Positions 14,171 to 63,742 of a stretch of 64,000 nt of DNA are shown piece by piece. How positions within the stretch are numbered: position 1 is the first letter of the stretch; each line of letters starts with the position of its first letter. The translations under genes were made by a program, and so were the position numbers. The notes under the pieces were generated by a model. That model saw nothing but the letters and a program-made list of their open reading frames with translations, ran no database searches and was not told where the DNA came from. Origin of the DNA: Athripsodes cinereus (lineage: Eukaryota > Arthropoda > Insecta > Trichoptera > Leptoceridae); contig OX388322.1 in the NCBI GenBank assembly GCA_947579605.1, positions 5,084,001 through 5,148,000 on the forward strand, in the 5' to 3' direction.

Positions 14171-14507
14171 TTATTTGTTTCGACAACAAAATTCAATATT
14201 GAAATCAAGTAACAACATATTGATTCATTCATCAACCTTTATTGTATAGAATAGATAATTTATAGAAAAAAATTGTTATGCGACCAGACCCATCAGTGAT
14301 TTGAGACCTAAAGGAAAATAATTATTATTTATTAATCAAGTAACGGAAGTGCATTGTAGAATACTCAAAACATTCAAAATATTTTGAAGCTGTTACATGG
14401 TTGATCCTTCCAAAATAAATGATAATTATGCTATGATTTTTTTGACACAATTGGATGTCGGGAACTGGATTTTACTTACTATTATAGAAATGAAGATGTT
14501 AATTATA

Positions 14508-14770
14508 AATTTTGAACCACTCTAGATTAATCATTTCAAATTGATCATACTCACCGCTAGTCAACCTATTTGAATAGGTATTAACTAGGTAGGTATGTTG
14601 TATATGATACACATCCATATGTGAACTTTAGGAGTATTACATATATACTTCCATTTATATGGGTGTGTAATATATACAAAATACCTACCTAGTTAATACC
14701 TATTCGAATAGGTTAACTATTTGTGAGTGTGATCAATTTGGAATGATAAATCTTGAGTGGTTCAAAATAT
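14508..14770. mobile_element. Foldback MITE with long inverted arms
   Basis: The left arm starts TTTTGAACCACTCTAGATTA and the right arm ends with the complement (GAGTGGTTCAAAA). The arms continue through 'gtcaacctatttgaataggt', and an inner palindromic spacer holds 'tacctacctagttaatacc'. A related copy lies at 38632-38880 inside the intron of peptide gene 1. Confidence 0.75.
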
Positions 14771-15080
14771 GATAAATAAATTATAAGGTTTTCTAAATTT
14801 TAAACATTGCTCATATTTTCCATCATGTTTATTCGTTAATTTATATAAATTATTTTCATGTATTAACTCATTGTTGCTATTAAAGTATTAGGCTATTATA
14901 ATATGTTACAAATTCAAGGGAAGAAAAATTACGTAGAGAATTATTTACGCCATACATTTTTATTTCAATAAATATGCTATATAGAGAATTATACGAAATC
15001 AATGATTTATAGAATAATTATTGTAAATTAAAAAATTAATAAGTAAAAAATACTTAAGAGTTTTAAATTTCTTTATTTAT

Positions 15081-17197: not shown

Positions 17198-17232
17198 TTC
17201 TACCAAAAAACAATAAACCTCACAAATACCAC

Positions 17233-17334
17233 ATTCTCGAAACAAGAACTAGAACTACTCAACATCCTAGACATCTTTAAATACCAGAATAACACAAACA
17301 CTACAACACATGGACACCCTACACTTCCATAACT
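17233..17334 (+). pseudogene. Internally deleted Penelope sister copy
   Basis: The plus strand encodes FSKQELELLN fused in frame to ILDIFKYQNNTNTTTHGHP and a stop shortly after. Both segments match the two ends of the minus-strand protein exactly, so about 1.9 kb was lost between them. The 28-bp N-terminal segment forms a tight inverted repeat with 17165-17192. A template jump during reverse transcription would explain both the deletion and the head-to-head order. Confidence 0.8.
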
Positions 17335-33125: not shown

Positions 33126-33478
33126 TCAGAGAAAACATAGCAAAATGGATGCTGCACAGCCGGATCCACCGTGAACTTTCAGCGCTCACAATACTTGCCC
33201 TAGTGAAATGTTGACGTGGAGATATATTTCGTCACTGAATCAAAGACATTGCCAACCTCAATAACGATGTTCTACGAATCGAAAATTTAGGCAAAAAGTG
33301 GGAAACTTTATACATACCGGTCCTCTCAAACCATTTCAACTGAAAAAAGATACTTAAGCTTTCTTAACAACTGGTGTGGCAAAGAGGTAACGCTCTTGCC
33401 TGGATGTGAGGTGAATATCCCTACAATGTCCTGGGTCTGGATGTCACAAGTATAATTATGTTCTGTGCATTAGGTATA

Positions 33479-34210: not shown

Positions 34211-34599
34211 TACTGACTTATTTTGTCCATGTTCTCATTCTGTCTACTTATCACGCCTTCTCTTATAATATTTTAATAATTTTAATTGATTTGTTCTATC
34301 AATTTTATTTGAAAGTCTGATTCATTGATAATTAACATCAACAATTCAGTGATGAGGCATACCACCAATACTAATGAAGACGGAGAGTATGTCGATGTGG
34401 TAAAAAGGAAAATTTGAAAAACTCAAGTTTGTCATTTACCTGAGGAACGGCGCCGATAACGAAGACCCTAAAAACGATGGAACAGCAGCTGGGCTTTCAC
34501 ATAGGAAGAGGATCTTCCTGAATGAACAGAATTTAGAGCCTTACAAAAGATTAAGACTAGGAAATAGACTATACGAGCAAAGTTAGGATTTAAGCTTGT

Positions 34600-34760
34600 A
34601 TGACGACTGAAGACCGAGGATGCAAAGAGCATTGCCGCTGACAGGAAGAGCTGGTCAGAACTGGTTCAAGACCCACGGGGGGCACCCACTGCCGCATATA
34701 GGCTCCGTCCACGTGCACAACCTTATGCAGCAAGGGCTCCATAAAAGAGAGAAGAGAGAG
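34600..34760 (+). pseudogene. LINE C-terminal fragment, present only in unit A
   Basis: The plus strand reads LKTEDAKSIAADRKSWSELV and then QDPRGAP, the 'A.dR..W..lv.dP' pattern at the C-terminus of several LINE proteins. It is absent between the matching flanks in unit B (about 40280). Confidence 0.45.
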
Positions 34761-35152
34761 AAGCTAGTATAAGCGAATGAGTAAGTTTAGTATCGGTATT
34801 CCCAAGGTATTGACAACTCAAGTTGTCCATTTTTCATTCTGAAAAACAACAATTTGTTTCAAAGTTATATAAAACGTTACAAACTCCCATAAGTTAAATA
34901 TAGACAACTGAACTTTTATTCCAAAGGGTTCTGGGAAAGAAAAAGTGTCTTGAGTCTGATTGTAACATGTATATGTATTAAGTACATTGTACATATTTAT
35001 GTGCATCGTAGTGTTAGTACCTACCCATAATACAAGATTCTTATTATCTTAGTTTGAGACAGGCTCGATATGCGTGAATTATAAAAACAACTATGACTCA
35101 GATATAATTTTGTATTGGAGTGTTAAAAATTAACAAAGTGTGCCGATGCACA

Positions 35153-36739: not shown

Positions 36740-36915
36740 TGGGGTAGCCAGCATAACCCACAAGTGGGGTAGCCAGCAGACCAGCTGTGTGTAACAAATA
36801 TGAAAGCCGTCCTCTCGCTTCCAAAAAAAATAAGACATTTAGGATGGGTGGCTAACTAGATAGCTTAATTTAAAACAAGAAATTTTCTTATTTTTTTAAC
36901 ACCTGAATTTAACAG
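36740..36915 (+). repeat. Rep-A copy shared by both duplication units
   Basis: 'cccacaagtggggtagccag', 'gaccagctgtgtgtaacaaa', 'tatgaaagccgtcctct', 'acatttaggatgggtggct' and 'aacacctgaatttaacaggg' are present. The matching copy in unit B is at 44085-44240. Confidence 0.75.
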
Positions 36916-38150
36916 GGCACTCGAAAAGAATGGTTAAACGCTTACTTTATTATGAATATCACAGCACAAGATTGTTTAAGGTAGTCAATGCCTCCGAATT
37001 TAATAGATGGTTGTGAGGCAAACAGTTCATGAAAAGATCGTGCCAATATGCAGGTATTTCAATGTCATACATACCTTAACATTTCAGGGTTATTGCCCCC
37101 CACAATAAAAAAAATAAGTCATATTAAATATTAACGTTGTGCACCATTATGGTAAACATATTATTTAACCAATAAAATAAACATATCATGGGCGCACCCA
37201 ACATTTTTCCTGTGGAGGAGGGGACAGTCGCCTTAGCAAATCTCTATGATTTTGTTTTAAATATTTTTATTGAAAATAAAATACCTAATAACATCATTAA
37301 ATAAAACGTGATGACAATATTATCATTAAGTAATCTTGTATCTTGCTGTTTTTGCCTCCTTTAAAAGCTCACTTGTGTAAAAGAGGGGGGCAGAATATAT
37401 TTAATATACATATTTTTGTTTGTTTCACAATCTCCCAATTTTTATTAAATAAAATTTAAGAACCACATTATATTTTTATTTTCATTTATAATTTTAGACA
37501 CACATTCCAGGGTAGTTTCCTACTTCACTGCCAAATACAATGTATGGCATATACTATTTCTATACTTCAGTACTCATTAATAATAGTCATATATTATGTC
37601 ACCGTATTATATATTATACTGATGCTGTTGTTGATAATATCCAAATTCTTAATTTGCATATATATGTTTTTTTACCGTAAATGTACTTTTGTTTTCATTG
37701 TTATTGTGGAATATAATTTATTGTATAACTTACTTTTTTTTCACAAAAGAATTTTCTTCTTTAACCGCATAACAGCTATAGACCATTAAAGGATGACGTC
37801 ACAGAAAAAAGTTTGCAGGACAACAACGGAACACAAACTAAACAAAAAAATGTGGTGTTTCTTTTTAACTGAGCAGTTCTAAAACAAAAACAAAACAAAC
37901 AAAAAGGTGGTATCTCTTTCTAACTGCGCAGTTCTAACTATGCGTGAAAAAGAGAGTACCATAACACATGCTATCTCACATAGTAAATTATTTCAAAGAA
38001 GAGCGTTGTCATGTAGGTATTATCCTGTTTTTGAGATCTTTAACAGGCAGGGGGGGGGGCAATTGCCCTTTTTGCCTCCTACGCTACGCCCTTGTTACAC
38101 AAAATAAAATATTCGCATATTTTTACAGAGCACATTATTCACCAGAATCA
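36916..38150. other. Upstream region of peptide gene 1
   Basis: No other gene is seen. 'cgcttactttattatgaata' and 'tttaatagatggttgtgagg' (36940-37020) are conserved with 44420-44500 in unit B. The frames 37544-37789 and 37907-38171 are not conserved in unit B as coding sequence. Regulatory sequence beyond the TATA box cannot be defined from the sequence alone. Confidence 0.4.
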
Positions 38151-38162
38151 ATAATCTATTCG

Positions 38163-38170
38163 TATAAATA
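38163..38170 (+). promoter_or_regulatory. TATA box of tryptophan-rich peptide gene 1
   Basis: TATAAATA lies 76 nt before the ATG in a block conserved with unit B ('aataatctattcgtataaat', 'aggggacacttttcaagata'). The spacing predicts transcription starting about 30 nt downstream, leaving a 5' UTR of roughly 45 nt. Confidence 0.75.
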
Positions 38171-38238
38171 GGGGACACTTTTCAAGATAGTTTGTGTTTC
38201 TTTCTTTATTCACATTAATCGTGACACATAGATTCAAA

Positions 38239-39663
38239 ATGAAGTTCGTTGCATTGTCTTTGGTCTTGGCTGCCTTGATTGTGGCAGCATATGCGGAGGG
38301 TAAGATTTTTTTATTTATTAGATAATTTATTTTATAGTTATCAAATTTTTATTTGTGATTTGCAAAAAAAAATGTAATTTGAAACAAATGTTTCTTTCTA
38401 CTATAAGTAATTGATCACGAGAGAGACGTCTTTCATCTTATCAAGTCATTATTGGATTATCAGAAGATTGATCAATAACTTATTTATATAAGAAGCAGGA
38501 AACGCTTGTTTCATATTATCTTATATGGAATTTTACTACGTGTGCACCAACACAATTAATAATTGCAAAAAATATTTGTTTTAAGTTATTTTCAAATTCA
38601 TTTCTGAAAACTATTCCTATTTTAAATATATTTTTGAACCACTTCAGATTAATCATTCCAATTGATCACATTCATCCAAAGTCAACCTATTTGAATAGGT
38701 ATTAAACAGGTAACGATTCATAAACGTCGAAACTCTGTGTTGTGGATTCCTTAAGGAAGTTCACAATATATGTATGTGTATCATATAAAACATACCACCT
38801 AGTTAAAACCTATTCAAATAGGTTGACTATGGATGAGTGTGATCAGTTGGAATGATTAATCTGAAGTGGTTCAAAAATATGTTTGACATCTACACTTCTA
38901 GTAAGTAAAAAATCCAGTTCCCGACATCCCAATTGTGTTATAAAATTCATAACATATATTCCTTTTTTTAGTTAGGTATGCTTTTACAACTTAAAATTCA
39001 AAATGATAGATCTTAAAACATACAAAAGCCACTCATAACGTTTCTGTAGTGTACTGTTGATGCTTAATAAATAAATAAAATAAATAAATAACATATGCGT
39101 TCCTTTTACGGACAATTCAGAAATGGATTTTGCCGAATATTTCCTACATCCATATTGATTGAGATAACATTACTGATTCGTTTCGCTATTATACTTTAAT
39201 TGTTTCAAAATTAGTTGCAACTGTTCTTACTCTATATAAATTTGTATTTTTTATGTAAGTAGATATGTTTCAATAAAAAAACAATAATGTTTTAATAGTT
39301 GAAGAAGATATGAAGGTACAATTGATATCTTAGAACAAAACAATTCGAAAAACACTGGGAAACACTGATCTTAGAATAAAACGATTCGAAAACATTTTTT
39401 TATTTACAAAGAATAAAATTAGAATAATCTTCCTCAACAATTTGTAATTGGACATAGCCAGACCGATAACAAGGGTGTACATGCGCGCCCGAACAAGCAA
39501 GGAAACAGTGACTATGCATTCGACACCCGCATAAGTTTCACCAGCAAAATGCCAGTATCCAAGAATTAATTCCATCTATGAAATTGTTGATATTAATTCA
39601 TTTTGCAAACGTTTTTTTTCAGCTGCCAACTGGCGTAAATGGAATAATTGGAAGGGATGGTAA
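38239..39663 (+). CDS. Tryptophan-rich secreted peptide gene 1 (two exons, 33 aa)
   Basis: Exon 1 is 38239-38299 and exon 2 is 39623-39663; a 1323-nt phase-1 intron (GTAAGA...ttttttttcAG) splits codon 21. Exon 1 encodes MKFVALSLVLAALIVAAYA then Glu: a basic start, a hydrophobic core and an A-Y-A motif, i.e. a classical signal peptide. Exon 2 completes Ala and adds ANWRKWNNWKGW, stop. Cleavage after AYA would release EAANWRKWNNWKGW, 14 residues, net positive, with Trp at every third position (W24, W27, W30, W33). A TATA box, strong splice sites, a poly(A) signal and a close paralogue support a real gene. The size and composition suggest an antimicrobial, venom-like or signalling peptide, but I do not recognise the family and assign no function. 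Expression has not been tested. Confidence 0.75.
38385..38480 (-). repeat. Hammerhead-like foldback remnant inside intron (gene 1)
   Basis: 'taattgatcacgagagagac' and 'gattgatcaataac' pair as an outer stem around a minus-strand motif containing AGACGUC, a mutated GAA region and 'aagtcattatt'. It corresponds to the copy at 45415-45505 in gene 2, so it predates the segmental duplication. Confidence 0.5.
38632..38880. mobile_element. Foldback MITE in intron of gene 1
   Basis: The arms 'ttgaaccacttcagattaat' and 'attaatctgaagtggttcaa' are near-perfect inverted repeats. The element is a relative of 14508-14770. No equivalent was noticed in the gene 2 intron. Confidence 0.75.
39335..39590 (-). mobile_element. 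Old LINE 3'-UTR/hAT remnant in intron, shared with gene 2
   Basis: 'gggaaacactgatcttagaa' and 'agccagaccgataacaaggg..gcgcgcccgaacaag' recur at 62670-62820 in the gene 2 intron. The last part matches, in reverse, the LINE-like repeat at 3985-4070. The minus-strand 81-codon frame is incidental. Sharing this block ties the distant second exon of gene 2 to the same duplicated gene. Confidence 0.65.
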
Positions 39664-39751: not shown

Positions 39752-39757
39752 AATAAA
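39752..39757 (+). terminator. Poly(A) signal of peptide gene 1
   Basis: AATAAA lies 89 nt after the stop codon, followed by 'aggatgaaagattaacaatc', and is conserved at the same relative place in gene 2. Confidence 0.7.
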
Positions 39758-40479
39758 AGGATGAAAGATTAACAATCATTATGTTTTTAACTAAGAATAT
39801 CCCAATTTTCCACCACTAATTAATGTTCTAAAATATTTTGCACATGACAAACATTTCATGAACCTCATTATTTATAATAAGTATAAAGTATTGGGTGACT
39901 CTATAGTTATTAAATTAATTATGACACCAACCTGATTTCTAGACGATAAAAAAAAAAAAAATACAATCCACTTGGTAAAATTTCAAGAAATTTTTTTTAA
40001 AATATATTTCTTCATTAAGTACTTCCACATTGTACTAATGAAGACGGAGCCCACCCATAATAATGAAGACGTATAATTTGTCGATGTGGTAAAAAGGAAA
40101 ATTCAACAAACTCAAGTTTGTCATTTACCTGAGGAACGGCGCCGATAACGAAGACCCTAAAAACGATGGAACAGCAGCTGGGCTTTCACATAGGAAGAGG
40201 ATCTTCCTGAATGAACAGAATTTAGAGCCTTACAAAAGATTAAGACTAGGAAATACACTATACAAGGAAAGTTAGGATTTAAGCTAGAATAAACGTATGA
40301 GAAAGTTTAGTACCGGTATTCCCAAGGCATTGACAACTGAAGTTGTCCATTTTTCATTGTGAAAAACAACAGTTTGTTTCAAAGTTTCACAAAACGTAAC
40401 AAACTCCCATAAGTTAAATAAAGACAACTGAACTTTTATTCCAAAGGGTTCTGGAGAAGAAGTCCTTAGTCTGATTGTT

Positions 40480-40720
40480 ACATGTATGTATGTTTATGTG
40501 TTAAGTACATTGTATACATGTGCATCGTAATGTTAGTACCTACCCATAATACAAGATTCAAAATATTACCTTAGTTTGGGATTAGCTCGATATTTGTGAA
40601 TTTATTGTCTATGCATGTTATGCTATAAAAACAACTATGACTCAGATATAATATTGTGTATTAGAGTGATAAAAATCAACAAAGTGTGCCGATGCAAATA
40701 CATATAACTAAATCAAATAA
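40480..40720 (+). repeat. Rep-B copy in unit B
   Basis: 'gttagtacctacccataata', 'agtttgggattagctcgata' and 'gtctatgcatgttatgctat' match 34990-35150 in unit A and, reversed, 28740-28930. Confidence 0.6.
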
Positions 40721-44392: not shown

Positions 44393-45224
44393 ACAGGGCA
44401 CTCGAAAAGAATGGTAAAACGCTTACTTTATTATGAATATCACAGCACAAGATTGTTTAAGATAGTCGATGCCACCAAATTTAATAGATGGTTATGAGGC
44501 AAACAAAGGATGCGAAGATCATGACAATATGCACGTATTTCAATGTCATACGTACCTAAACATCTCAAGATGTTTTGCCCCCCACAATAAAACAAATACA
44601 GAAATCGTATTTAATATTGATTTACGTTGTGGACAGTGGTAAACATATTATTTAAATAATAAAATATTTTTATGGATAGGCGCACCCAACATTTTCTCTG
44701 TGTGGGAAGGGACAGCAGCCTTAGCAAATCTTTATAGGAATTTGATTCTTTTTAAACAATATAATTGAACATAAAATAATAACATCACGACATAAAACTT
44801 TATTACAATATCATATTCAGTAATCTTGTATCTTGCTGTTTTGAGCCTCCTTAAAAATTTAACTTGTGTTAAGCAGGGGGGGCAGAATATATTTTATAAA
44901 CTACCTATATGTTTGTTTTACAATCACCTTATTTTCGAAAAATAATATTTTTAGGATAGCGTATTTAAAATTCATGAAACAAATAAACATAGAAATTCAA
45001 GTAAAAATAAAAATTAAAATGTCTATAAATTGTTAGATAGTTAATCCCTCTAAAATAAGGCAATAAATACTTTTTTTGTGATACGACTGTTTTTGTGATA
45101 CTCAACAGACAGGAAGGAGCGACTGCCCCCTTTTTCCCCCCTACGCTACGCCCATGTTACACAGAATAAATTATTCGTATATTTTTACAGAGTACAATAT
45201 TCACCAGAATCAATAATCTATTCG

Positions 45225-45232: not shown

Positions 45233-45300
45233 GGGGACACTTTTCAAGATAGTTTGTGTTTATTTCATTATTCACATTGGACGCAATACATAGATTCAAA

Positions 45301-48300
45301 ATGAAGTTCGCTACATTGTCTTTGGTCTTGGCTGCCTTGATTTTGGCAGCATATGCGGAGGGTAAGATTCTTTATATCAATTTGTAATTTGCAAAAAAGG
45401 TAATTTGAATAAGTGTTTCCTTCTACAATAAGTAATTGATCACGAGAGAGACGTCTTTCGACTTATCATGACATTATTGGATTATCAGACGATTGATCAA
45501 TAACTAATTTATTTATTTATTTATTAAATTAATTAAAAAAAAAAAACTTATACTTTTTTATACACACTTATATTTTTATTTTTATTTTTGTAGACAATAT
45601 TGTTTCGTCTCTTAATGAGACATTATCAATACTAAACTATGCAAAACAAATAATATTCAATTAAGGTGAAAGTACAGTGGTAGTGGTAGAGGGGGGAACA
45701 ATGGAGGTATGAGGGTATGAAACAAGTGGGAATATTCTGAGAATTGGGGATGCATTGGGTATTGTTGTTTTATTGACTAAATTATTTACACTATTAATAT
45801 TTTTATGAATTTCCAATGTTTCTCTTAGTAATAATCTTCTATAACTACTATTATTAAAATTCAATATTTTAAAAGGCTCCTTTTGGTTTATGCTATGGTT
45901 TTCTTCTATTAAGTGGTTGGCAAATTCAGAGAATCCCGTATTTTTTAGACAATTTTTTTAGACAATTACCAGCCAACCACTTAATAGAAGAAAACCATAG
46001 CATAAACCAAAAGGAGCCTTTTAAAATATTGAATTTTAATAATAGTAGTTATAGAAGATTATTACTAAGAGAAACATTGGAAATTCATAAAAATATTAAT
46101 AGTGTAAATAATTTAGTCAATAAAACAACAATACCCAATGCATCCCCAATTCTCAGAATATTCCCACTTGTTTCATACCCTCATACCTCCATTGTTCCCC
46201 CCTCTACCACTACCACTGTACTTTCACCTTAATTGAATATTATTTGTTTTGCATAGTTTAGTATTGATAATGTCTCATTAAGAGACGAAACAATATTGTC
46301 TACAAAAATAAAAATAAAAATATAAGTGTGTATAAAAAAGTATAAGTTTTTTTTTTAATTAATTTAATATGGATACACAAAAAGTGACGGATTACATTGA
46401 AAATATTATTTATTTATTCTTTTTGCACATCATCATTACATAACAGTGTTATCAAAATAATATAAATTTAAGAAACTAGGACGATGTGCAGTGGCGAGAT
46501 TATCACTATAAAGTGATTTCTTCCATCTAACCACGACACATTGACATGAAACTAGTAAAAACAAATTTACTTACAAAAAAAAACATACAAAATATCAAAA
46601 CACAACAAAAGAAAAAAAAAACAAAATTTAAAATAATATATTTGACACACACCCAACATGTGGTAGGGTTTATGGATCAGAGGGGGGGGGGGGCGCTAGG
46701 GAACGGATACTGAGTTAGAAGATAGCATTTTTTCCTTAACATAAGATTTAAAGACATTGAACGATTGTGAAACTCTATGCGAAGAAGGAAGATTATTCCA
46801 ACAACGAGCACCATAAACTGAGAATGATTTCGAGAAATAATTGGTACTGTGTGTAGGAATTGCCAGAAGACGCTCGTTATTGGATCGCAATGGTAGGCCA
46901 TGGCTCGCTAAATACTCGAAATTATCTTTTAAATAATAGGGAGAAGACGTGGAATAGAGTATTTTGTAAACAAGTGATAGAATATGAAGTTCACGTCTTT
47001 GATGCACAGTTAGCCACTTAAGATTGACTCGATACTGGGAGATATGATCAGACCTCTTGAGATTGAAAATAAATCGGATACCATAATTCTAAAGTCTCTC
47101 AAGTTTATTTGACAGGTCTTGGTTGATATCGAGATATACTGCATTAGCATAATCTATGAGAGGCAGCAGCAGAGATTGAACAAGTAAGGTTTCGATTTTA
47201 GTTGGAAGGAACATTTGATATATTTTAAGAGAATGCAGTGAATAGAAAAAATTTCGTCGGATTGTATTCATATGCTGCTGCCAAGTTAGTTTTTGGTCCA
47301 TAATCACACCAAGGTTCTTCACTGTTGCTGAATAAGGGATTATATCTGAGTTCATTGTTGTATTGGGCACGGTCATGGATTTGAGTTTTGAAATGTGATA
47401 ATGACTGCCGAGGAAAATTGATTGAGATTTTGTAGGATTTATGATAAGTCCATGATTCGTTGCCCAAACTAATGTATATAAGAGGGAAACGCTTGTTTTA
47501 TATTACCTTATTATGGAATTCTACTACGTGTGCACCAACACAATTCATAGGGGAGACTTGTCCAAAATGATCCCCTTAAGGGAGAATCAAATTTTCATAC
47601 CCTAAAAAGTGATTTTTTAAGATTATCTATTTTTTTCTAACAGTTCAATTATTTTACTATCTACCATTATCGATTAAATTATGCTTTTAATCACAATTAA
47701 ATATAAAATGTGATTTTAGAAAAACTCCCCACTGCGTGTACAAAATGATCCCCTGGGATCATTATACCTACCCCTAATGAAAGTCAGATTTGAACAAAAT
47801 AATATATTTGTTAAATAAATCAAGGAAGAATGAAAAAATATAATTGAGTAATAAATTTATTTACTGAAGAAAGTTTGTAATGAAAAAAAAATAGTAAATT
47901 AGTAGGTACATAAAATAAAAAAAGCCTTTGACAATAATTTTTTTAAGCTTTAATATTGATTGATATTTTCTTGTATTAGACAAAGGTGACACTTGAAAAA
48001 ATCCTCATCATCATCGCCTACCCCCGCACATTCTTCATGCCCCCATTTCAAGCACGATGAACACCTAATCCAGCCGTCACCTGCTTTACTTTTCGAAAAA
48101 TTTTATTGACAAAAAAAGCATGTTGTGTCATCATTCTCGTCTGAGGATGCAGACCTTTCCCTTTTATTACGGTTTACCTTTTACCTTTTTTAACCATTGA
48201 TTTTTTCACATTACGTGATTTTTGTTTCATTTCTTGTTCAATTTTTTTCTTTTTTTCTTCTTCTAATTTTTTTTTGTATGGGCTGCTTGTTAAAATGACC

Positions 48301-51300
48301 GGACTTCCTTTGGCTCTTTTCGTAACGTTTCTTTTTCCTTTAATTTTAGGAGCCTTTGTAAATTTGTTTGATGATGCATTAAGAAATGTACCTAAAGAAC
48401 CAATGGAACCTTTTATAGTGTTACGGATGAGCAACAAAACTTTAGACAATTCACTTGGACTTTGAGTGTGAATTTCATAAAGATTGGACGATACAATAGG
48501 CACGGACGGAGCTGACCTTGAAGGTAAATCTATTGATACGTTGTCGAAAGACTGTGAATTTTCGATTTCTTGTTCTGTTGTTGCAGCAGCTATGAAATCC
48601 AAATCTGTGAAAACATCCGGATCGAAGGGAACTATTCCACACACACAACCATTTATCGCATTTAATGGTGTTGCAGCTTTCAAATATGCTTCCCCAAAAA
48701 CTTTGCTCAGTTGGAAAACGGTCACAACCCTGCCAGGGTAATTATTCATCCACTTTTCTAAAGCCTGATTGTGATAAAGGCTAAGAGGATACATAACTCC
48801 AACATCTAACGGTTGAAGTTTGAGTACAATGGGGAGGCAAACACAGCATTGTTACATAATTTTCCCGCGCCTTCATAAAAAAATTCAAATTTTTGGTGTG
48901 TGATAGATGACCATCCAAAATAAGAAGTGCTGGATCTTCAGCATTTGGTTTTGTGTGTGCAAGAAAATGTTCGAACCATTTTTCACAAACTTCTACGTTC
49001 ATCCAGCCAGAGCTATTGCAGGCGTAAGTGGAACCAGATGGTGCACCGTCCATGAGTTCTTCATTCATCCTAACACTTTTAAAAATCAACATCGGTGGAA
49101 TGAAATTTCCAGAAGCTGACATGCACAGTACCGCAGTAGTTGTGTCACCTCTTTCGGCAGAGGTGATTCTGGCTACTTGTTTACGATCAGTCAATTTAGA
49201 TTTGGGAAACCGTATTATATTTATGCCATCTATACTATAAAGGCATTCCTTAAAAGTGAGGTGCTCATTTATAATATTATATTTTTAGATTGTCATTTAT
49301 TATTCAGCGATTAGGTTTTCCAACTAAATTGAATGCTAGTTTATTACACGCGGTTGGTCTGCTGGCTATCCCACTTGTGGATTATGCCGTGATAGTGCGC
49401 ACTGTATAGTAGTAGTAGTAGTAATAGCAAATTGTCATAGTATCTAGTTCAATACAGTATAATAGAGTTATATTATTTATATGTATTCATTGGACTAATT
49501 TTCATATGAATAACCATGTAACAGTGGAGAGAGATTTTATTTATTTTTTTATTTTACAAATATTTACGGCCAGAGCCTTTTATATGTTAAACCTCTGTAT
49601 ACCTACATACAAAACATGTATACAAAGGAACGATCTGTTACAAAAAAGACACAAAACAATTAGACCAAAAACGAGATTTTTTCCCCATTTCGCAATAAGG
49701 TAAATGCCGGAGAAGTTAGATATTTATATTTTTCTTAAATTATTCTCTCGTGAATCCGTCCACAGCGGAACACATTCCAATAGTTTTTTATCACTGAATT
49801 ATAGTGACTTTCTTAACAACACGGGCTTCTCCCAACTTTCTTTTGTTCAAATCCATTTCGCAATAAGGTAAATGCCGGAGAAGTTAGATATTTATATTTT
49901 TCTTAAATTATTCTCTCGTGAATCCGTCCACAGCGGATCACATTCCGATAGTTTTTTATCACTGAATTATAGTGACTTTCTTAACAACACGGTGCTACGC
50001 ATTAAAATATTCAACGCGTAATACGTTCATATTCGCTGCTATGCCTATAATTAGTAGTTGTCCTTTGTCGTCACTCAATAATAATAATAACAATAATATT
50101 ATTTTCTCTACACCTTGTCGGTAATCCTCGGGTATCCTCGTGCATACGAATGGTGCACTCATCACCACTAACACGTGATGTCCATAGAATGTTCTTTTTT
50201 TTTAACGTCTTTTCGAAGTCCGTTATGACGAAACAGTTTCTCCTTTACGATGGGTTAGTCCACACGTATAGGGTGGCCCAGTGCCCACTCTGTCCTCGCG
50301 GCGGACAGTCACCGTAGTAATTACGACAAGTTAATAGTATTGGTAGATAATTAGAGGCAATCTTCATAACAGTGGAATGATCAATCTTGTTGTCCTCCTG
50401 CGTTCATAAAATAATTCTTGTTGTGTGCCGTGTAATAATGTACTTTAAAACAACCTGTGTCAATTGTTATGCGCGTGGACGGATTTACCGCCAACATTAG
50501 TGTACTATAAAACCATTCTTATTAATAATCAATAGTAATCAATAAACCAAATAATATCGTGAACAGGCTTGAGTATCCTTTGTGTCATATAGATTACGTT
50601 GTCGAAGTGATATTAAGATAACATTTGGAGTTTTTTTTGAGTGATGTAGCATTTGTATGATTTTGGGCGTGGTTTTTTTGCTGTTGCCGCCATTTTACAT
50701 ATCCGTGCGAAATGAGACATCCCATGGTTCTGGACAACTATTCAATGTTGGGATTCGTAAAAAATCACTTAAACAATTCTTTGTACTGTCCCAGCGATAT
50801 AAATTTAATTAAAACGTGAATGAGTTCCGAGGTCGGCAACAAACACCTCTTCAACACGGGAGTCTGTATGTTGCGCATCAGTGAATTATCGATGAACACT
50901 CGTTCCTACGAGAACGTGAAGATCCTCTCTTAGCTTTTCCGGTCGCGACCTTTGTTATGAGAGTGATTAAATAATCATCCGTTTATGCTTGGACAGACTA
51001 TGGAAATAGTGACGCCTTCTTCCTTTGACACTGAGAATAGTGTAGAAACGTATAATATTGCTCTTATCACTTGAGAAGTAGTGATCTCTTCGTCCTGAGG
51101 ACAGGAACTATCTGATTCTGACACCACCACACCCCTGTACGTCCTGGAGTATAACCAGCGACCGCCATAGAAGCATCAGGGTATGTTTCTTTCACGATCC
51201 TGCCATCTTCCGTCTATGAGTGCAAAATACGTTAACAATAACATACTTGTCTTTGTGTTATTCTTGTCCTGCTCACCAGTCTATCTGTAAGTGACTATAT

Positions 51301-54300
51301 TACTACTGAGTTTGATGTATATATATTGATAATTTATTCATAACTAAGTTCATATAATCGTTAAACTATCTATATATTAATTTCCTTTGTATAATAATAT
51401 AAGATCTTGAGTATGAGTGAAGAATGAATGATTCAAATTACATTTTATAGACCCCACGATAATCCAGGTATTGATTTATATTTGTAATACCAAGGTTGGT
51501 GTCTTTAATAATTACCATTGTGTGTTTTACTGTCTCTATCCAAATATGGCAATACTTTCATAATTTTGCGTATTGTATGGAATAGTATTCCCTACAGATT
51601 TACTTTGAAAGTAACTGTCTTGTTATGTAATGTATATGTTTACACAATAAATGTAAATCACTTACCATCCGATATCTTTCTATTGAAATTCATTTTGTAT
51701 ACCCACCAGTAGATTCAATACTCTTAATAATACTAAAGTACATCTCTCCGCCTCCTTGTATATAATCTTCCAATAACCTAGTTTATACTCGGAGTAGTTA
51801 TGTACCAAAGGTTCGAATCCTGGACCAACCCTTGGGAGGAAGACCATATTAACTCACTATGAAGGCAACCAAGAGCTAAATTAAAGGCTCCATTGATAGA
51901 AATGAAACAGCCTCTTTCTTTGAAGGGTATGAAGTACTTTTTGATAATCTTAGTTTCACATGATATATATATAATTTTGTTGTTTACATGGATATGTCTA
52001 TAAATTTACTTTGCTACATAATATGAAGATTCTATTCAATAAGTTATAAATGGTATACTGAAGGAGTAAGGTGTTCCTGGTAACCTGACTGCTTGTGGAC
52101 TTAGGGGTAAGCATGACACAGAGGCCTCTCTCGCCCAGAGCCAAGTAAAAAAGGGCCCTATACACTTGTAAGAAACCCCTAGACATAAACACGAGTATAG
52201 ACCTTTTACTTTTTAATATCTCTAGACTACTTAACGAGCATATAGGTCTATATTTATAACAGTATTACTCTACAGAATATGTATTTTGCTTCTTATAGTT
52301 CAGTTTGAAACTTTGTTCATTGTTCTAATTTTGCTTTTGTAATAAATTGTGTGTTCGACCGTTGGACGAAGCATAATTTACTTGTTATGTGAGAGCGTGG
52401 TTAATGGAAACCACACACGTAGCAATTTGGGTGCTCGTCTCCCACGTAGCAATTTGTGGGCTCGTTGTCCGGGATAATATCAAAAAGAAGACGAATAAAT
52501 TGTGAATTCGTTTCTCGGATATACAGTAATTCGAATAATTACAAACTTGAAAAAATCTGTGTCATGACTACGCTTGGGTTTACATGTTGCTTTTAATGCC
52601 ATTTGTGATAAATTTTATGTACAATTGATATGTCTTGTAGCAATCATGTGTAATGCAAATATGTGTGTGAAGTGATAACTGTTAAATCTCACGAGTAAAT
52701 CGCCGCGCGACTGGTTGGAATATAGCGTAGTGTGAAAACCGACTTTTGTTAAGATTTGGTGGGAACACAAGTTTCCCGCGAAATATTGAATGTATTACGT
52801 TTCGCGCGGGAATTTCCGTAGATACGAAGTATAAACAAAGTATAATTGGTAAGTACGCACTTTCTCAAACTGTGCGCGAGTAAATAATCGTAAGAAATTT
52901 TATTTATTTATTAAATAGATCTCGTGATCAGAATTTTGTTTTGTTAACGATTGATTACTCATTGTGTAATCAGATTTAATCCGAATTGGGTGGTGGCGAT
53001 AAACTTCTTTTATCTACCAGAGCACCGAGTCCCTCCCTAGTGTCGAAAGACACGTTTAAGAAACTAGTTTGTAAGAATAGAAAAAGCGTAGGAGAGTGTG
53101 AAAATAATTTTAGTTATTTATAAAACATAAAATAAAACATTGAAGCGTCGGAATATAGTAACATTGTCAGCACAACCAAATATCTCTTGAACCTTTGTCA
53201 TTCAAAGATGAATTTTCGTGTGTAACTTAAAAGTTTTTGAGCATCTAAAGTTTTAGAACCTTTGTCATACTTTCTTTATAATAATGTCTCGATTTGAACC
53301 ATTGTTATTTTTGGGTCCAATTCCCAATGTAGACAAAGCTAACGGTGCTACACTAAAGAAAGCTTTATCTGAAAGAGGAGTTATACCGAAACGTTCAATT
53401 CCTAGTTTGAGAAGGCAAGCGTTAGAATATAATAAACAAAATCTGGAAGTAGAATTCGAACAAGTTGCTCCACAATCGCGTATGAATGCTCAAATATCTC
53501 TTGATATGGAACCACCTTGTACATCCGTGTCTAGCAATGTGAACGTTGTTGCTGTAGAAGAGTCGGCATCTATCGAGAAATCCTTCGATAATGCTTTAAG
53601 TCTTAGTAAAACCTCACAGCTTTTGAATGTAAATTTTGGATCTTGGCCAGTAAAACCTTTTGATGGTCTCGGTGATGTAAGAAACTTTTTTACGCGGTTG
53701 GAAGAAATTGCAAGGGCTAGGAGGTTCCCAAATAAACAATTGGTATACGTTTTGCCTGAATTTCTGAAGGATCGAGCGCTTACACACTTTCGAATAATTT
53801 TTAAAGAGGAAATGACTTGGGAAGCTATCAAGGCACTCTTTTACCACCGTTTTGAAGCCCCTGGATTTATGATAGATAGAAAATTACGTATTTGGTCGTC
53901 GATACAAAACAATTACGAAACTTCAGCAGACTATATTGCCCGAATAATAGAAATGAATAGCTCCCTTGATGAGAAACTGACTGAGAATGAATTGTTGGAA
54001 GTCTTCAAACGCGGGTTACATCAGAGATATGTCTCTCTTTTGGCTAGTTCTCACATTTCGTCAGTAAGTGAACTGGAAAGAATGGTCTCCAACTTCGATC
54101 GTCTGACCAAAGGCCACACTTCTTCTTCTTCTAGACCTACTGCCATGAGAGTTAATGCAGTAGAGAATCGTCCCAAACCAGTCATACGATGCTTTTCTTG
54201 CGGACATGTTGGACACATTTCTAAGGAATGTAAAAACAGAGTTAGACATTTTACACCCCGTCGTTCACCCAGGAATAGATATAACAATGCCATGCGTGAA

Positions 54301-57300
54301 CAGAAACCTGCATCGCTGATGCCGGATACTTCTAGACCACCCCCGTCGTTTTCAAAAAACTAATTTCTCCCTCGTTAAGACATCCTTCCGATACGATAGC
54401 TCGTTCTTCATCATCAGATGTAATATCGTCAGACGGAAACTCACGGTATAATTACCGAGGGGTAACCAGAAATTTATGCACAACTCGTGTTGTTAGAAAA
54501 GAAAATGATGGCCGACCTTACGTTAATATTAAAATTCATTCTGTAATCTGTCTCTCACTATTGGATAGTGGGGCGGTGATATCAATTCTAGGAAAGAATT
54601 CTCATGTCCAATTTTTGAACTTAGGATATCCTCTTGTACCTTGTGAAACTCGTGTACTCACTGCGGATGGGAATGGTCAATCTGTTTTAGGAACCTTAAC
54701 GTTACCTGTACAGTATCAGGGTATTGAAAAATGTATCACGTTTTTAGTTGTTCCATCTATAACGTCATCTTACTTGTTAGGAATTGACTTTTGGAAAGGA
54801 TTTAATATCTGTCCTGAACTTTTTCCTGTGTCTGTTTGTACAATACCTCCTGTATTACATTTAAATGCTGTAACCCAAATAGATGAACGTATTTTTTCTG
54901 CTGGTCTCACTCCTGAACCGCCTGTTGTAACCAAAGGATTGATTGGTCCGACCAATTTAACCTCGGAACAAGTTGTTATTATCAATGATATCAAGCGATC
55001 CTATGAAGATGTTTCATATGAAAAGAAAGGATTGGGCCGCTTGAAAGGAATTTTTCATAAGATTGAAACCATGGGAGATCCTGTTAGGCAGAGACATTAC
55101 CCTATTCCTCATGCAAAGAAAGAAATCATGAACAAAGAAATTGATAAGATGTTACAATTAGGAGTCATAGAACCTGCTTCTTCTTCTTGGCAGTCGCCTG
55201 CGTTGATAGTTAATAAAAAGAATGGAGAACCTCGCTTCTGTTTGGACAGTCGTGGCCTGAACAAAGTAACTAAACCAAACTCGTATTGCTTACCTTGGAT
55301 TGATCGTATCTTGGACAGTTTGCGTGATGCCAAGTTTCTAACTGCTCTGGACCTGTCCAAGGCTTTCTGGCAACTTCCATTATCGCCTGAATCTAAGGAG
55401 AAAACCGCCTTCTTCATTGATGGGCGTGGCTCTTACCAATTCTCTGTGTGCCCGTTTGGTCTACGTAATATTCCTAGTCACATGCAAATGATTGCTGACA
55501 AACTGTTCAGTCACCGCTTTCCCGGTCGTGTACATTGTTATCTTGACGATATCCTGATTGTAAGTGAAACCTTTGAACAACACTGTAATGACCTAAGACT
55601 TGTACAATCTATCTTGAAGGAAAATGGTCTCACTATCAATATGACTAAGTCTGAATTTTGTAAATCATCTCTGCGTTACTTGGGTTATATTGTAGATGGC
55701 GAAGGGTTAAGAACTGATGAACTCAAAATAGAAGCCATGAAAAAATTTCCCACTCCTACTACCCCGAAACAGGTAAAATCTTTCTTGGGTATGTGTTCTT
55801 ATTACCGAAAATTCATACAAAACTTCGCACATATAGCTGCCCCTTTGAGTGCCCTTACGTCTAGAAAAAACAAAAAGTTTGTATGGAACGAAGAAGCTGA
55901 AAATGCGTTCCACAGTTTAAAATTAGCCTTACAATCTGCACCTGTTTTAGTTCAACCTGATTATACGAAAGAATTTTATTTACACACTGACTGTTCGGAT
56001 CTTGCTATGTCAGGAATTTTGATGCAAAAACTGGAAGATGGTGAACATCCGATTGCATATTTTTCACGTAAGCTCACCGGTCCTGAAAAAAATTACTCCA
56101 TTTGTGAAAAGGAACTGTTGGCAGCTCTGTGTTCTATAACTCACTTCCGTAATTATTTAGATGGTGTACGTTTTCACTTGATCACTGATAACTCTTCTTT
56201 GCAGTGGTTGCACAAGTTACAGAATCCAACAGGAAGATTAGCTCGCTGGTCGACTCGTTTGAGTGCTTTTGATTTTGATGTAACTCATCGACCAGGTAAA
56301 TTAAATGTTGTACCTGATTGCCTTAGTCGTGTGGAAATTGGAACTTTGACGTTGCCTACAGAAATCACTGATACCTGTGATGCAGTGTATAACAAGCTTA
56401 AGAAAGGTTGTGAAAATTACCCACAAGCTTACCCGAATTATCAGATTATGGAAGGAAAATTGTATAGATATACCAAATCTTCTAACACTTTATTGTCACC
56501 TCATGAATGGAAATTAGTATTGCCAAAACTCGATGCTTTAAAAATGATTCAAGAATATCATTGTAGTGGCGATTCTTGTCATGAAGGTACTTATAAAACG
56601 TACAAACATTTACGACGATATTTCTATTGGCCAAACATGCATCTTTCAGTCGCTAGATTTGTAAACAACTGTGAAATCTGTAAAACTCATAAAATTGCTA
56701 CTTCTGGACCACGTGGTATTATGGGAAAACCTAAATTGGTGTCCATGCCTTTACAGACTCTATCAATTGATATAATTGGTCCTTTTGTCAAAAGTGTTGA
56801 AGGATACGTTTATATATTATCTGTGGTATGTGTTTTTACTAAGTTTGTTTGGATTTTTCCATTGCGAAAATGTACCTCTGCCATAATTCAGAAATGCCTA
56901 GAGGAAAGAATTTTCTTACCATATTCTGTGCCGAAATGTATTTTATTGGATAATGCCACCTATTTTTGTTCCCGTTCATTCAAATCATTTTTAGAATCGT
57001 ATGGGATAGAAAAGATTTTGTATTCAGCATATTATGCTCCACAATCTAATACAGTTGAAAGGTACAATCAAACCATTGGTACCGCTCTTTCGATTTTGGT
57101 TGATAATAATCATAGAATTTGGAGTAAGAAATTACCCATAGTACAAGCCAGTTTGAATAATAATGTATCTTTTGCGACGGGATATTCACCCCATTTTCTT
57201 ATGCATGGATTTGAAAGCGTGCAACATGCTTCATTTTTCAAAAGTTTGAGTTCTAATGTAGATGAAAATCCTTCGGATGAACTGAAGAACTCTTACAAAC

Positions 57301-60300
57301 AAAAATTGGATGTATTGTACGATGTATATAATGAGGTTACTGACATGCTGACTGAATCATATAAAAAATCTGCCTCTCGTTACAATCTTCGTCGAAAACG
57401 AGTAGATTATCGTCCTGGTGATGTAGTCTATCGTAGAAATTTTGTAAAATCCAATGCAGCTGCGGAATTCATGTCTAAATTGGCCCCTCGTTTTGTGAAA
57501 AATCGTATTAGGTCAAAGTTGTCAGATAACGTGTATCTTTTAGAGTCAATGGATGGTGTTTATAGTGGAAAGTTTCACGTGAAGGATATTCTGAAAGATG
57601 AAAAGTATTGAATATCCCTGTTATGTATTGTGACTTATGCAAATTTTAGTATAAATAAAATATTATATGTAGCGAATTGTGTGTTGTATCGTCTTGTTGA
57701 GGAATGGAATGTAAAGTACAATAGAGTAGACATAGGTACAAGCGCCAACGACACTGGTCCATGGATTATATAATGATGACAATTATCGATTAAATATAAA
57801 TTCCTCGAACCCTTCATTTTCTATCCTGTCTTTCGATATTGGTGACAATTGTATGTAGTATGATGTATGCATGTGAGTGTGACTGTGTGAGCCCTGAATG
57901 AGGAATTATAGATGATGTATGTAGTATGATGAATGTAAAATATCGAATACCCCAGACAGAGATTCTCTTTAATAATAACCCCCACGAATGTTGTAGTCTT
58001 CTGTCGTCATTGTGTATACTTTGTGTCCACATCGATATCGTTTTGTAAGTGGAGCACTTGTAAAATTTTAATACTCATATTGTATATATATGGAATGTCG
58101 TATGATGTATAGCAGTAGACGTCCTGGCTGTACATTATATGAGACAAGCGTATGTGTAAATTGTATTGTTCGCATTTATATTGTAAAATTAAATTGAAAT
58201 TTTTATGTGTTATAGAGTCCTACGAGGAATGCCTCTGTGGTTGTAATTGAAAAGAAAAATACTGACCTAATCCGTATGTACGAGCGCGAATTAGAGTCTA
58301 AACGTATATTGATCAAAGCCGTGAGAATATTATGTGACCATATGTATATGAAAATCGTTATATGTAAATATTTATTTTGTTCTTATAATGTCTTGCTATA
58401 TGATTCGTCTATAGTACATGACGTATGTTATATTTAATTGTGAGTGTCTTTCATATCGGATGGGTAAACACGTATAAAATGAGACATCTCTAACTTGTAT
58501 GTATATTAAATTCTTCGTAATATTAATGTTGTGTAAAGCCGCGAACTACTAATGCCGGGACACTTGTGTCGGTACATTGTGCGTTGCGTGGTGGTTATAG
58601 ACCAACTACTCTTGTCGTTGGATATTTCTAATTTAATTAAACTATCCGATTTTATTATAATTATTAGTATGTATAAATTCCATTAGCTACAGAACCTCAT
58701 ACACATATATTGTAAATTTTATTGATATATTGTACATGTTATTAATATAAGGTAATTGTTATATAAATGTTATAAAGAATGTTGAATGTTGTAATTGTTG
58801 TTATTATTTAATTATGTTTGCTTAGGAGCCCTGTCTTATAAATAATATAGAGTTACTTGAGTGAAGTGAAATTTAACTGGAGGAAATATCAGTGCGCCAA
58901 AATTCCTTCAGCATGGCCTGTAATCGCGTGTGTTTAAAATAAGTAAATGTTGGGCTATAGGATTGTTGCTTATTTATAAGAAAATTTAATTGTTGTTTGA
59001 TATGTATGTAGTATTCATAGTGTTGTCCCTTTCTATATGTAATAATATGTCGCGTCACTTACGGATGAGAGGGGCGTGTCTTTGACAGGACTGGCAGAGC
59101 AAGGAGGACGTACTATCTCTTGTATATAACCAGTGGTTCTCAACTTTTTTTTTTTTTTTTTTTTTAACTTTGTGTTCTCTTTGAAAATTTGTCGTTTCAC
59201 TTCAAATTTTCAAAAAGGGGGCGCAGACGGAGAATGCTACGCATTAAAATATTCAACGCGTAATACGTTCATATTCGCTGCTATGCCTATAATTAGTAGT
59301 TGTCCTTTGTCGTCACTCAATAATAATAATAACAATAATATTATTTTCTCTACACCTTGTCGGTAATCCTCGGGTATCCTCGTGCATACGAATGGTGCAC
59401 TCATCACCACTAACACGTGATGTCCATAGAATGTTCTTTTTTTTTAACGTCTTTTCGAAGTCCGTTATGACGAAACAGTTTCTCCTTTACGATGGGTTAG
59501 TCCACACGTATAGGGTGGCCCAGTGCCCACTCTGTCCTCGCGGCGGACAGTCACCGTAGTAATTACGACAAGTTAATAGTATTGGTAGATAATTAGAGGC
59601 AATCTTCATAACAGTGGAATGATCAATCTTGTTGTCCTCCTGCGTTCATAAAATAATTCTTGTTGTGTGCCGTGTAATAATGTACTTTAAAACAACCTGT
59701 GTCAATTGTTATGCGCGTGGACGGATTTACCGCCAACATTAGTGTACTATAAAACCATTCTTATTAATAATCAATAGTAATCAATAAACCAAATAATATC
59801 GTGAACAGGCTTGAGTATCCTTTGTGTCATATAGATTACGTTGTCGAAGTGATATTAAGATAACATTTGGAGTTTTTTTTGAGTGATGTAGCATTTGTAT
59901 GATTTTGGGCGTGGTTTTTTTGCTGTTGCCGCCATTTTACATATCCGTGCGAAATGAGACATCCCATGGTTCTGGACAACTATTCAATGTTGGGATTCGT
60001 AAAAAATCACTTAAACAATTCTTTGTACTGTCCCAGCGATATAAATTTAATTAAAACGTGAATGAGTTCCGAGGTCGGCAACAAACACCTCTTCAACACG
60101 GGAGTCTGTATGTTGCGCATCAGTGAATTATCGATGAACACTCGTTCCTACGAGAACGTGAAGATCCTCTCTTAGCTTTTCCGGTCGCGACCTTTGTTAT
60201 GAGAGTGATTAAATAATCATCCGTTTATGCTTGGACAGACTATGGAAATAGTGACGCCTTCTTCCTTTGACACTGAGAATAGTGTAGAAACGTATAATAT

Positions 60301-63300
60301 TGCTCTTATCACTTGAGAAGTAGTGATCTCTTCGTCCTGAGGACAGGAACTATCTGATTCTGACACCACCACACCCCTGTACGTCCTGGAGTATAACCAG
60401 CGACCGCCATAGAAGCATCAGGGTATGTTTCTTTCACGATCCTGCCATCTTCCGTCTATGAGTGCAAAATACGTTAACAATAACATACTTGTCTTTGTGT
60501 TATTCTTGTCCTGCTCACCAGTCTATCTGTAAGTGACTATATTACTACTGAGTTTGATGTATATATATTGATAATTTATTCATAACTAAGTTCATATAAT
60601 CGTTAAACTATCTATATATTAATTTCCTTTGTATAATAATATAAGATCTTGAGTATGAGTGAAGAATGAATGATTCAAATTACATTTTATAGACCCCACG
60701 ATAATCCAGGTATTGATTTATATTTGTAATACCAAGGTTGGTGTCTTTAATAATTACCATTGTGTGTTTTACTGTCTCTATCCAAATATGGCAATACTTT
60801 CATAATTTTGCGTATTGTATGGAATAGTATTCCCTACAGATTTACTTTGAAAGTAACTGTCTTGTTATGTAATGTATATGTTTACACAATAAATGTAAAT
60901 CACTTACCATCCGATATCTTTCTATTGAAATTCATTTTGTATACCCACCAGTAGATTCAATACTCTTAATAATACTAAAGTACATCTCTCCGCCTCCTTG
61001 TATATAATCTTCCAATAACCTAGTTTATACTCGGAGTAGTTATGTACCAAAGGTTCGAATCCTGGACCAACCCTTGGGAGGAAGACCATATTAACTCACT
61101 ATGAAGGCAACCAAGAGCTAAATTAAAGGCTCCATTGATAGAAATGAAACAGCCTCTTTCTTTGAAGGGTATGAAGTACTTTTTGATAATCTTAGTTTCA
61201 CATGATATATATATAATTTTGTTGTTTACATGGATATGTCTATAAATTTACTTTGCTACATAATATGAAGATTCTATTCAATAAGTTATAAATGGTATAC
61301 TGAAGGAGTAAGGTGTTCCTGGTAACCTGACTGCTTGTGGACTTAGGGGTAAGCATGACACAGAGGCCTCTCTCGCCCAGAGCCAAGTAAAAAAGGGCCC
61401 TATACACTTGTAAGAAACCCCTAGACATAAACACGAGTATAGACCTTTTACTTTTTAATATCTCTAGACTACTTAACGAGCATATAGGTCTATATTTATA
61501 ACAGTATTACTCTACAGAATATGTATTTTGCTTCTTATAGTTCAGTTTGAAACTTTGTTCATTGTTCTAATTTTGCTTTTGTAATAAATTGTGTGTTCGA
61601 CCGTTGGACGAAGCATAATTTACTTGTTATGTGAGAGCGTGGTTAATGGAAACCACACACGTAGCAATTTGGGTGCTCGTCTCCCACGTAGCAACGGGCT
61701 TCTCCCAACTTTCTTTTGTTCAAATCCTATAAATACTGTTTGTCTCTGTATCTTATTTCACTTTTTAATAATCGCCTGATGATGGAGACGAGAGTCTCCG
61801 AATACTAGTACGCGAAATAATAAAAGTCAATTGGAAGTTAACTAAATATTGTGTTTTTTTCAATTATCTCAAAAACGAGAGTTTAACAGACAATATAACA
61901 TAAATCATGAGTTCGTCGGTAGCCTGGAGGTAGAGTCTCGGCCTCGTGAACATGGGGTCCGTGGTTCGATACCAGGTGCCGGAAAACTCCCCTTTCACGA
62001 CACAAGCTTTTAGTAGCTTACTGTGAAAGGTGTATAAGGTTGTATTTGGGTTTATAACAAAAACCCAGATATATCTTTTTTAAAAAAAAAGAAAAATTAT
62101 AATTCTAAAATAAAGTACAAAATTGTTAAAATTTTTTGGTCAAGACATTACAAAGAGAAATCAAAGTGGTATGAAAATGTCAAATATAGTTAAAAGTCCA
62201 TTAGTTAAAATTCATAAGTCAATAAAAAATTGATGTTTATAATTTTTATAATATAAAGTATTCCTGCTGTCCGTTAGGTACTTGAAACTACGCCATCGAC
62301 GGTTAAGTTGATACGAAGATGGCGTAGGTTTGCCGAAATCGACCGTGATTTCAAAAGTCAAATAAAAGATTACCATCTGTGACTATTAGAATACCTACTT
62401 ATATTTTTATAGATTATAAATATATTTTTTTACTGAGCAATCCATATCACATCCACTGGAGAGTCTTGATCTCTAAATAATTATCTTAGAACAGTGATTC
62501 CCAACCTTCTCTATGCCATGCTCCAATGTAGTCTTTTCAAAAGTCATTTGCCCCACGAGCCTTTTTTTAATAAAACAAACGTTGGTAGGTAAATTTTCAA
62601 TAATATGTGGAAGCGCGGTGCCTCATCTCCGAGGCGTGATGACCCACCGGTGGGGCGTACGCCTCACCTTGGGAAACACTGATCTTAGAATAAAACAACT
62701 CGAAAACATTTTTTATAAAACAACACAAAGAATAAAATGAGAATGATTTTCCATAACAGTTTACAATTCGATATAGCCAGACCGATAATGTGGGTAAAAA
62801 TGCGCGCCCGAACAAGTTTGGAATCAGTGACTATTTATTTTTATTTTTTATTTATTTATTCTTTAATGTACTATGCATTCGACATTCGCATAAGCCTCAC
62901 CAGCACAATAATAATAATAAATCAAAGATATGTGGAGAACACCAACCACAATCATCATCCCTATAGTGTTTTCTGTGAATGGTTTAATACCTTAGAGTCT
63001 GTCAAGTACTATCAGATAACTGAGAGTAGATGACAGGCTCAAATACAGCATGCAGAAGGTTGTTCTTCTATCATCTTCCAGGATAGTTAGAGTGTTTTTG
63101 TCTCTGTAGCTCTGTAAGTGATCTTCCATGATTTTACTATTTTCATAGGAATTCATGGAAGAATCAACTCGAATAATTTATTTATTCATTCTTTACTGTA
63201 CATTGATAACAAACAATTACATAAAAGGTATACATTCAAATAAAATACAATCAATATACCTACAGAGGGTTTATCGCAAAGGCGCGATCTCTTCCAACCA

Positions 63301-63649: not shown

Positions 63650-63742
63650 CTGGCTTATTACACTTGTTACGACGGAAGTATGTACACAATCAACAAAACA
63701 ATTTGGAACCTTTAATAAAATTACTGTTTTTATGTACTAATT

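Follow-up and report, generated by a model that had tools for sequence, protein, structure and literature searches.

We have described here two copies, A and B, of a putative split gene of very small size that lie on the forward strand of the window (the whole 64-kb stretch of Athripsodes cinereus DNA that was analysed). The exon and intron layout of copy A is confirmed from the DNA at the coordinates given in a preliminary description of this locus, and re-reading of the spliced 102 bases also bears out the phase-1 intron with consensus ends and the tryptophan at every third residue that it had reported. Splicing from the GT at 38300 to the AG ending at 39622 joins exon 1 (38239-38299) to exon 2 (39623-39663) in phase 1 and gives MKFVALSLVLAALIVAAYAE-A-ANWRKWNNWKGW-stop; the joined coding sequence of 102 bases reads MKFVALSLVLAALIVAAYAEAANWRKWNNWKGW followed by a stop, with the tryptophans at positions 24, 27, 30, and 33 of the precursor. 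The TATA box and poly(A) signal are likewise present as described, the former at 38163 within a sequence CGTATAAATAGG that starts at 38161 and the latter, AATAAA, starting at 39752. The paralogue had been mentioned without a location, and we place it at 45301-45361 (exon 1) and 63615-63649 (exon 2), where splicing across an 18.25-kb transposon-filled intron yields MKFATLSLVLAALILAAYAEA-SRSWWSWNSW-stop, the full product being MKFATLSLVLAALILAAYAEASRSWWSWNSW. The first exons of the two copies are identical at 58 of 61 positions, the donors are the same (AGG/GTAAGAT), and the acceptors are TTTTTTTTCAG and TTTTTTTAG.

Table 1. Positions of the gene features of copies A and B within the window.
Feature	Positions	Strand	Remarks
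Copy A core promoter	38136..38199	+	shares 64 identical bp with copy B; TATAAATA starts at 38163
Copy A exon 1	38239..38299	+	61 coding bases; predicted signal peptide MKFVALSLVLAALIVAAYA, followed by E and base 1 of codon 21
Copy A intron	38300..39622	+	phase 1, 1323 bases, GTAAG...CAG; foldback repeat inside
Copy A exon 2	39623..39663	+	41 bases including the stop; remainder of A21, then ANWRKWNNWKGW and stop
Copy A poly(A) signal AATAAA	39752-39757	+	opens the 42 bp (39752..39793) that match copy B without a difference
Copy B exon 1	45301..45361	+	coding: MKFATLSLVLAALILAAYAE plus one base
Copy B intron	45362..63614	+	phase 1, 18253 bases, GTAAG...TAG; LTR element with identical repeats inside
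Copy B exon 2	63615..63649	+	coding: remainder of A21, then SRSWWSWNSW and stop
Copy B poly(A) signal AATAAA	63743..63748	+	aligns with the copy A poly(A) signal; second AATAAA at 63714

Blocks upstream of the two copies (36912-37457 for A and 44393-44950 for B) are 86% identical, suggesting that the duplication extends well past the gene itself. The LTR-retrotransposon-like element in the copy B intron (49993-61694) has direct repeats of 2460 bp each (49993-52452 and 59235-61694), with gag-like and pol-like ORFs between them; the repeats are 100% identical, so that the insertion looks very recent, and no simple target duplication of 4-6 bases flanks the repeats where their ends were called. 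The foldback (inverted-repeat) element in the copy A intron spans 38624-38884 and has relatives at 14427-14771 on both strands, and copy A is flanked by a repeat pair (34362-35150 and 40051-40696) that aligns in two pieces, 95% and 81% identical. The window also contains, both on the minus strand, an open frame of 671 aa that includes a reverse transcriptase domain and is Penelope-like by inspection (15230-17245), and a DDE_1 transposase fragment (48784-49194). Among the transposon-protein matches listed, the four that carry an organism name are all from moths (Plutella, Mythimna), at 42-47% identity, and the closest matches, at 49% and 61-62%, are not among these four; two scans for relatives of transposon proteins returned none.

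The 64-bp run in the core promoter is the longest identical stretch on the 5' side, it takes in the expected start of transcription as well as the TATA box, and its length was reached in 0 of 5000 column shuffles. On the 3' side the longest identical stretch is the 42-bp run at the poly(A) signal, a length that a fraction of 0.0004 of 5000 column shuffles attained. Both of these blocks are more conserved than exon 2. Between the TATA box and the ATG the copies agree at 70 of 78 positions, and neither copy has a further ATG in this interval. Neither copy has a stop within the 15 in-frame codons that precede the ATG (38194-38238 in A and 45256-45300 in B), so that an ORF caller working on the spliced mRNA could begin 5' of the start codon. 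Neither has a match to the strict kB pattern GGGRNNYYCC in its 600 upstream bases. Relaxed kB matches lie right after the TATA box in both copies (38172 and 45234), with an extra one at 45048 in B, and GATA-like sites occur in A at 38185 and 37976 and in B at 45035 and 45247; being uncontrolled by shuffling, these relaxed and GATA-like sites are given no weight.

The regular tryptophan spacing is rare in this DNA. The pattern TGG-N6-TGG-N6-TGG-N6-TGG occurs once in the 64-kb window and in 0 of 100 shuffles, and the corresponding three-TGG pattern is observed three times against 0.16 expected, a count that none of 100 shuffles reached; all three occurrences fall inside the second exons of A and B, two of them overlapping in copy A. 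A blind exon scan required an ATG, an early basic residue, a 12-mer of strong hydrophobicity, and a GTRAG donor in phase 1, with thresholds picked after copy A had been seen; it found two exons in the window and still two in 264 kb on both strands, these being the first exons of A and B. At the same thresholds there are no additional copies within 100 kb on each side.

The divergence between the two copies provides a background against which the preservation of the exons can be judged. Outside the exons, 168 of 1195 columns in six aligned segments differ (14.1%, a rate that excludes the TATA-to-ATG stretch), and of 29 gap events 25 are not multiples of three; despite this divergence neither frame is broken and each of the four splice sites is kept. 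In a neutral simulation that starts from A and places the whole divergence on one copy, a fraction of 0.029 keep the frame and splice sites and 0.7% additionally end in WxxWxxW. Over 18 settings of rate and starting copy these values range over 0.015-0.137 and 0.3%-6.6% respectively, so that the test supports selection without being overwhelming, and is modest at low rates.

The two exons differ in how they have changed. Exon 1 carries three differences in 61 bases (binomial 0.021), all of them replacements, and in exon 2 the copies are identical at 24 of 35 aligned bases and separated by a gap of six bases, or two codons, which keeps the frame. A protein-only alignment with the DNA flanks left out puts this gap elsewhere, and we use the two-codon placement because the DNA flanks back it. 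With this placement none of the 15 bases encoding R, W, W, W, and the stop has changed, as against 10 of 15 in the five spacer codons (Fisher 2e-4), and there is one more change in codon 22. When the same Trp/spacer mask, picked after the sequences had been seen, is passed over 1021 noncoding 30-column windows, none reaches a contrast of 10 (the maximum is 8), and three of the 1021 have at least 10 mismatches overall. All nine substituted codons (14 base changes) are replacements, and zero synonymous-only codons would be expected in 9% of random placements. These changes are consistent with fast-evolving spacer residues, although with two sequences a single compound mutation could explain part of the spacer change.

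We count in favor of a coding gene that frame and splice sites have survived, that the promoter and 3' blocks are identical, and that the tryptophans are kept amid spacer change. It is very probable that the two-copy split gene is real and coding; it seems to be kept up by selection, and it is most likely a fast-changing gene for a secreted peptide. The preliminary description had proposed a secreted tryptophan-rich peptide of an unrecognised family, and this is supported in part: these three observations speak for the peptide, the lack of a Pfam, NCBIfam, or protein match fits an unrecognised family, and secretion stands as a prediction.

Searches for relatives returned little beyond the two copies. 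Pfam and NCBIfam gave no family for either peptide at E up to 10, in a search whose HMMER filters may miss queries of 31-33 aa, and the PDB gave no match with copy A as query. Among about 5.8 billion proteins there were six word-sharing candidates and none scoring E up to 10; the query was lengthened by the 15 upstream codons to satisfy the length minimum, and the search reaches exact-word sharers only. Across the 716-Mb genome a promoter/exon-1 DNA query found two places, which are A and B, so that the further members allowed for in the preliminary description did not appear at the DNA level; this is a lower bound, since more diverged members would be missed. A protein query of the same genome gave no matches, and with a query both short and split by an intron this empty result is uninformative. 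The exact 22-base exon-1 pattern has no matches in viral contigs and none in prokaryote contigs, as expected for animal DNA, and in the literature searched we recognised no paper describing the tryptophan-ladder peptide of copies A and B.

Three further candidates were considered at the locus. A weak nhmmer match at 33411-33440 (E 0.5) overlies an open hydrophobic stretch in one frame, but we do not count it as a third copy because it is unlike the family signal peptide, is uncalled by the blind scan, and has no exon-2 profile match nearby. An extra exon in the intron block at 39356-39515 was rejected; the block is 84.9% identical to 62670-62834, in line with the neutral flanks, and copy A has stops there in all three forward frames. 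Intron retention would give products of 28 residues including the signal peptide, ending in GKIFLFIR (A) or GKILYINL (B), and is not favored given that exon 2 is preserved in frame.

Our preferred reading is of a functional micro-gene that was duplicated once nearby and encodes a secreted linear peptide, with host defence as a guess at its role, and for this reading as a whole we would put the probability at roughly 0.5. A spliced mRNA of about 250 nt would be translated, signal peptidase would cleave after AYA and leave EA ahead of the peptide, and a dipeptidyl peptidase would trim the leading Glu-Ala to release peptides of 10 to 12 amino acids, ANWRKWNNWKGW from A and SRSWWSWNSW from B. Dipeptides of the X-Ala type are substrates for such removal too. 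X-Pro dipeptides precede insect defence peptides, and a signal peptide, a dipeptide, and a short mature peptide is the arrangement of many of them (PMC12882233); the nasonins of Nasonia are reported to have a phase-1 intron behind the signal peptide (PMC2853521). Selection would hold W-x-x-W-x-x-W at the C-terminus and leave the spacer residues free to shift quickly, and a backbone with three residues per turn (3-10 or polyproline-II) would align the tryptophans along one face, which in the host-defence version would sit in microbial membranes or envelopes.

The calculated properties of the two peptides bear on this role. At pH 7 the trimmed peptides carry charges of +2.79 (the A 12-mer) and +0.46 (the B 10-mer), or +1.83 and -0.16 with Glu-Ala retained. 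Their calculated monoisotopic masses are 1644.81 (A 12-mer) and 1380.60 (B 10-mer), or 1844.89 (A 14-mer) and 1580.68 (B 12-mer) with Glu-Ala. For the hydrophobic moment at 120 degrees the shuffle fraction is 0.036 in A, where the moment is high, and 0.168 in B, where it is not significant; these are two of eight uncorrected tests at four angles for two peptides. Since A and B differ in charge and amphipathicity, the feature they have in common is the tryptophan spacing and not charge, and for this reason host defence is put forward tentatively, as the leading guess and a little short of an even chance; the low charge of copy B argues against a simple cationic antimicrobial.

The same gene could instead make a signalling peptide or one secreted by a gland (seminal, venom, salivary, or otherwise lineage-specific), with the spacer change reflecting recognition of a receptor or partner. 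A short, linear product with predicted secretion, two diverged paralogues, replacement-only codon changes, and the absence of the strict kB motif upstream would all suit such a role; however, by inspection neither peptide ends in a Gly that could be amidated or has a dibasic site at which a sub-peptide would be released, the sole RK pair lying inside the tryptophan ladder of A, and we regard it as somewhat unlikely. Tryptophan can stack on sugar rings, and another use of the same gene would have the tryptophan row act as a sugar-stacking strip for chitin or glycan, or as a C-mannosylated WxxW, and not as a membrane anchor. That the copies share tryptophan spacing and not charge is in keeping with this, and the predicted secreted chains contain by inspection three overlapping WxxW sequons in A and two in B; this motif is the consensus for C-mannosylation, a modification that has been reported in insects (PMC12990085). 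The same review, however, has the C-mannosylation enzymes requiring a small side chain at +1, whereas three of the five WxxW sites have R, K, or W there and the other two have N, and Drosophila S2 cells are naturally C-mannose-negative (PMC6954052); we consider this use unlikely. A bolder proposal, which we hold to be distinctly improbable, is of a secreted peptide family in which the tryptophan ladder (R-x-W-x-x-W-x-x-W-COOH) by itself makes up the whole mature product and diversifying selection acts on the spacers, forming a minimal aromatic strip for glycans, chitin, or membranes or carrying several C-mannoses, and that there is a layer of split micro-genes missed by annotation. Finally, the exons could be untranslated, arising by chance or as a relic and owing their conservation to a noncoding RNA or to gene conversion that was local and recent, as might be argued from promoter and 3'-end blocks more identical than coding exon 2, from only two copies in a transposon-rich stretch, and from the lack of a match in the protein-collection search, but this is very unlikely given that frame, phase, and splice sites are preserved with a two-codon gap in exon 2, that the tryptophan codons are retained amid spacer change, and that A and B are the only two signal-peptide-plus-donor exons called in 264 kb.

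If expressed, the duplicated gene that we favor would be a very small split gene for a secreted peptide with an unusually regular tryptophan pattern and without a match in the family libraries or the protein collection searched. Neither coding exon exceeds 61 bases, so ORF-based annotation may miss genes of this kind, and a signal-peptide exon with a phase-1 donor together with conserved paralogous flanks offers a recipe by which micro-genes could be sought. The two copies, with constant tryptophans and changing spacers, also constitute a small natural test of the role of the tryptophan ladder.

Several known peptides resemble the predicted products in part. The Trp-rich antimicrobials indolicidin, tritrpticin, and their relatives are likewise short, linear, without Cys, and about one third tryptophan (PMC6017362), tryptophan making up four of 12 residues in A and four of 10 in B, so that both are Trp-rich short linear peptides; as in those antimicrobials A contains Arg and Lys, whereas B is nearly uncharged. 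The natural examples described there are mammalian or wheat-derived, and unlike them A and B have a tryptophan at every third residue, no Pro, and a precursor of only signal peptide, dipeptide, and peptide (PMC6017362). The short-form bomanins of Drosophila share tiny secreted precursors and clustered paralogues, are restricted to one genus, and have mature peptides of 16-17 aa after N-terminal trimming, but they are built on a 16-aa motif with a CXXC bend and A and B are without Cys (PMC4411088). In flies, Ibin and Mibin also place a short peptide after the signal peptide, in Mibins often with an X-Pro dipeptide between where A and B have Glu-Ala, and the KNHEEWXG motif of the Ibins, which are 23-24 aa long, is absent from A and B by inspection (PMC12882233). 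The myticalins and modiocalins of mussels, likened here by description only, combine a conserved signal peptide, a hypervariable linear mature region, and a phase-1 intron, but differ in being Arg- and often Pro-rich, in having a C-terminal propeptide and dibasic site, and in belonging to another phylum (PMC5577615). Thrombospondin repeats and the hormone of the stick insect Carausius carry C-mannosylated WxxW, and A and B likewise have overlapping WxxW motifs with predicted secretion, but unlike thrombospondin repeats they lack the TSR cysteines and their +1 residues are mostly unfavourable (PMC12990085). The best reading, taken from the DNA, is that A and B encode a short secreted peptide of an insect type already known, and that the tryptophan ladder is its unusual part.
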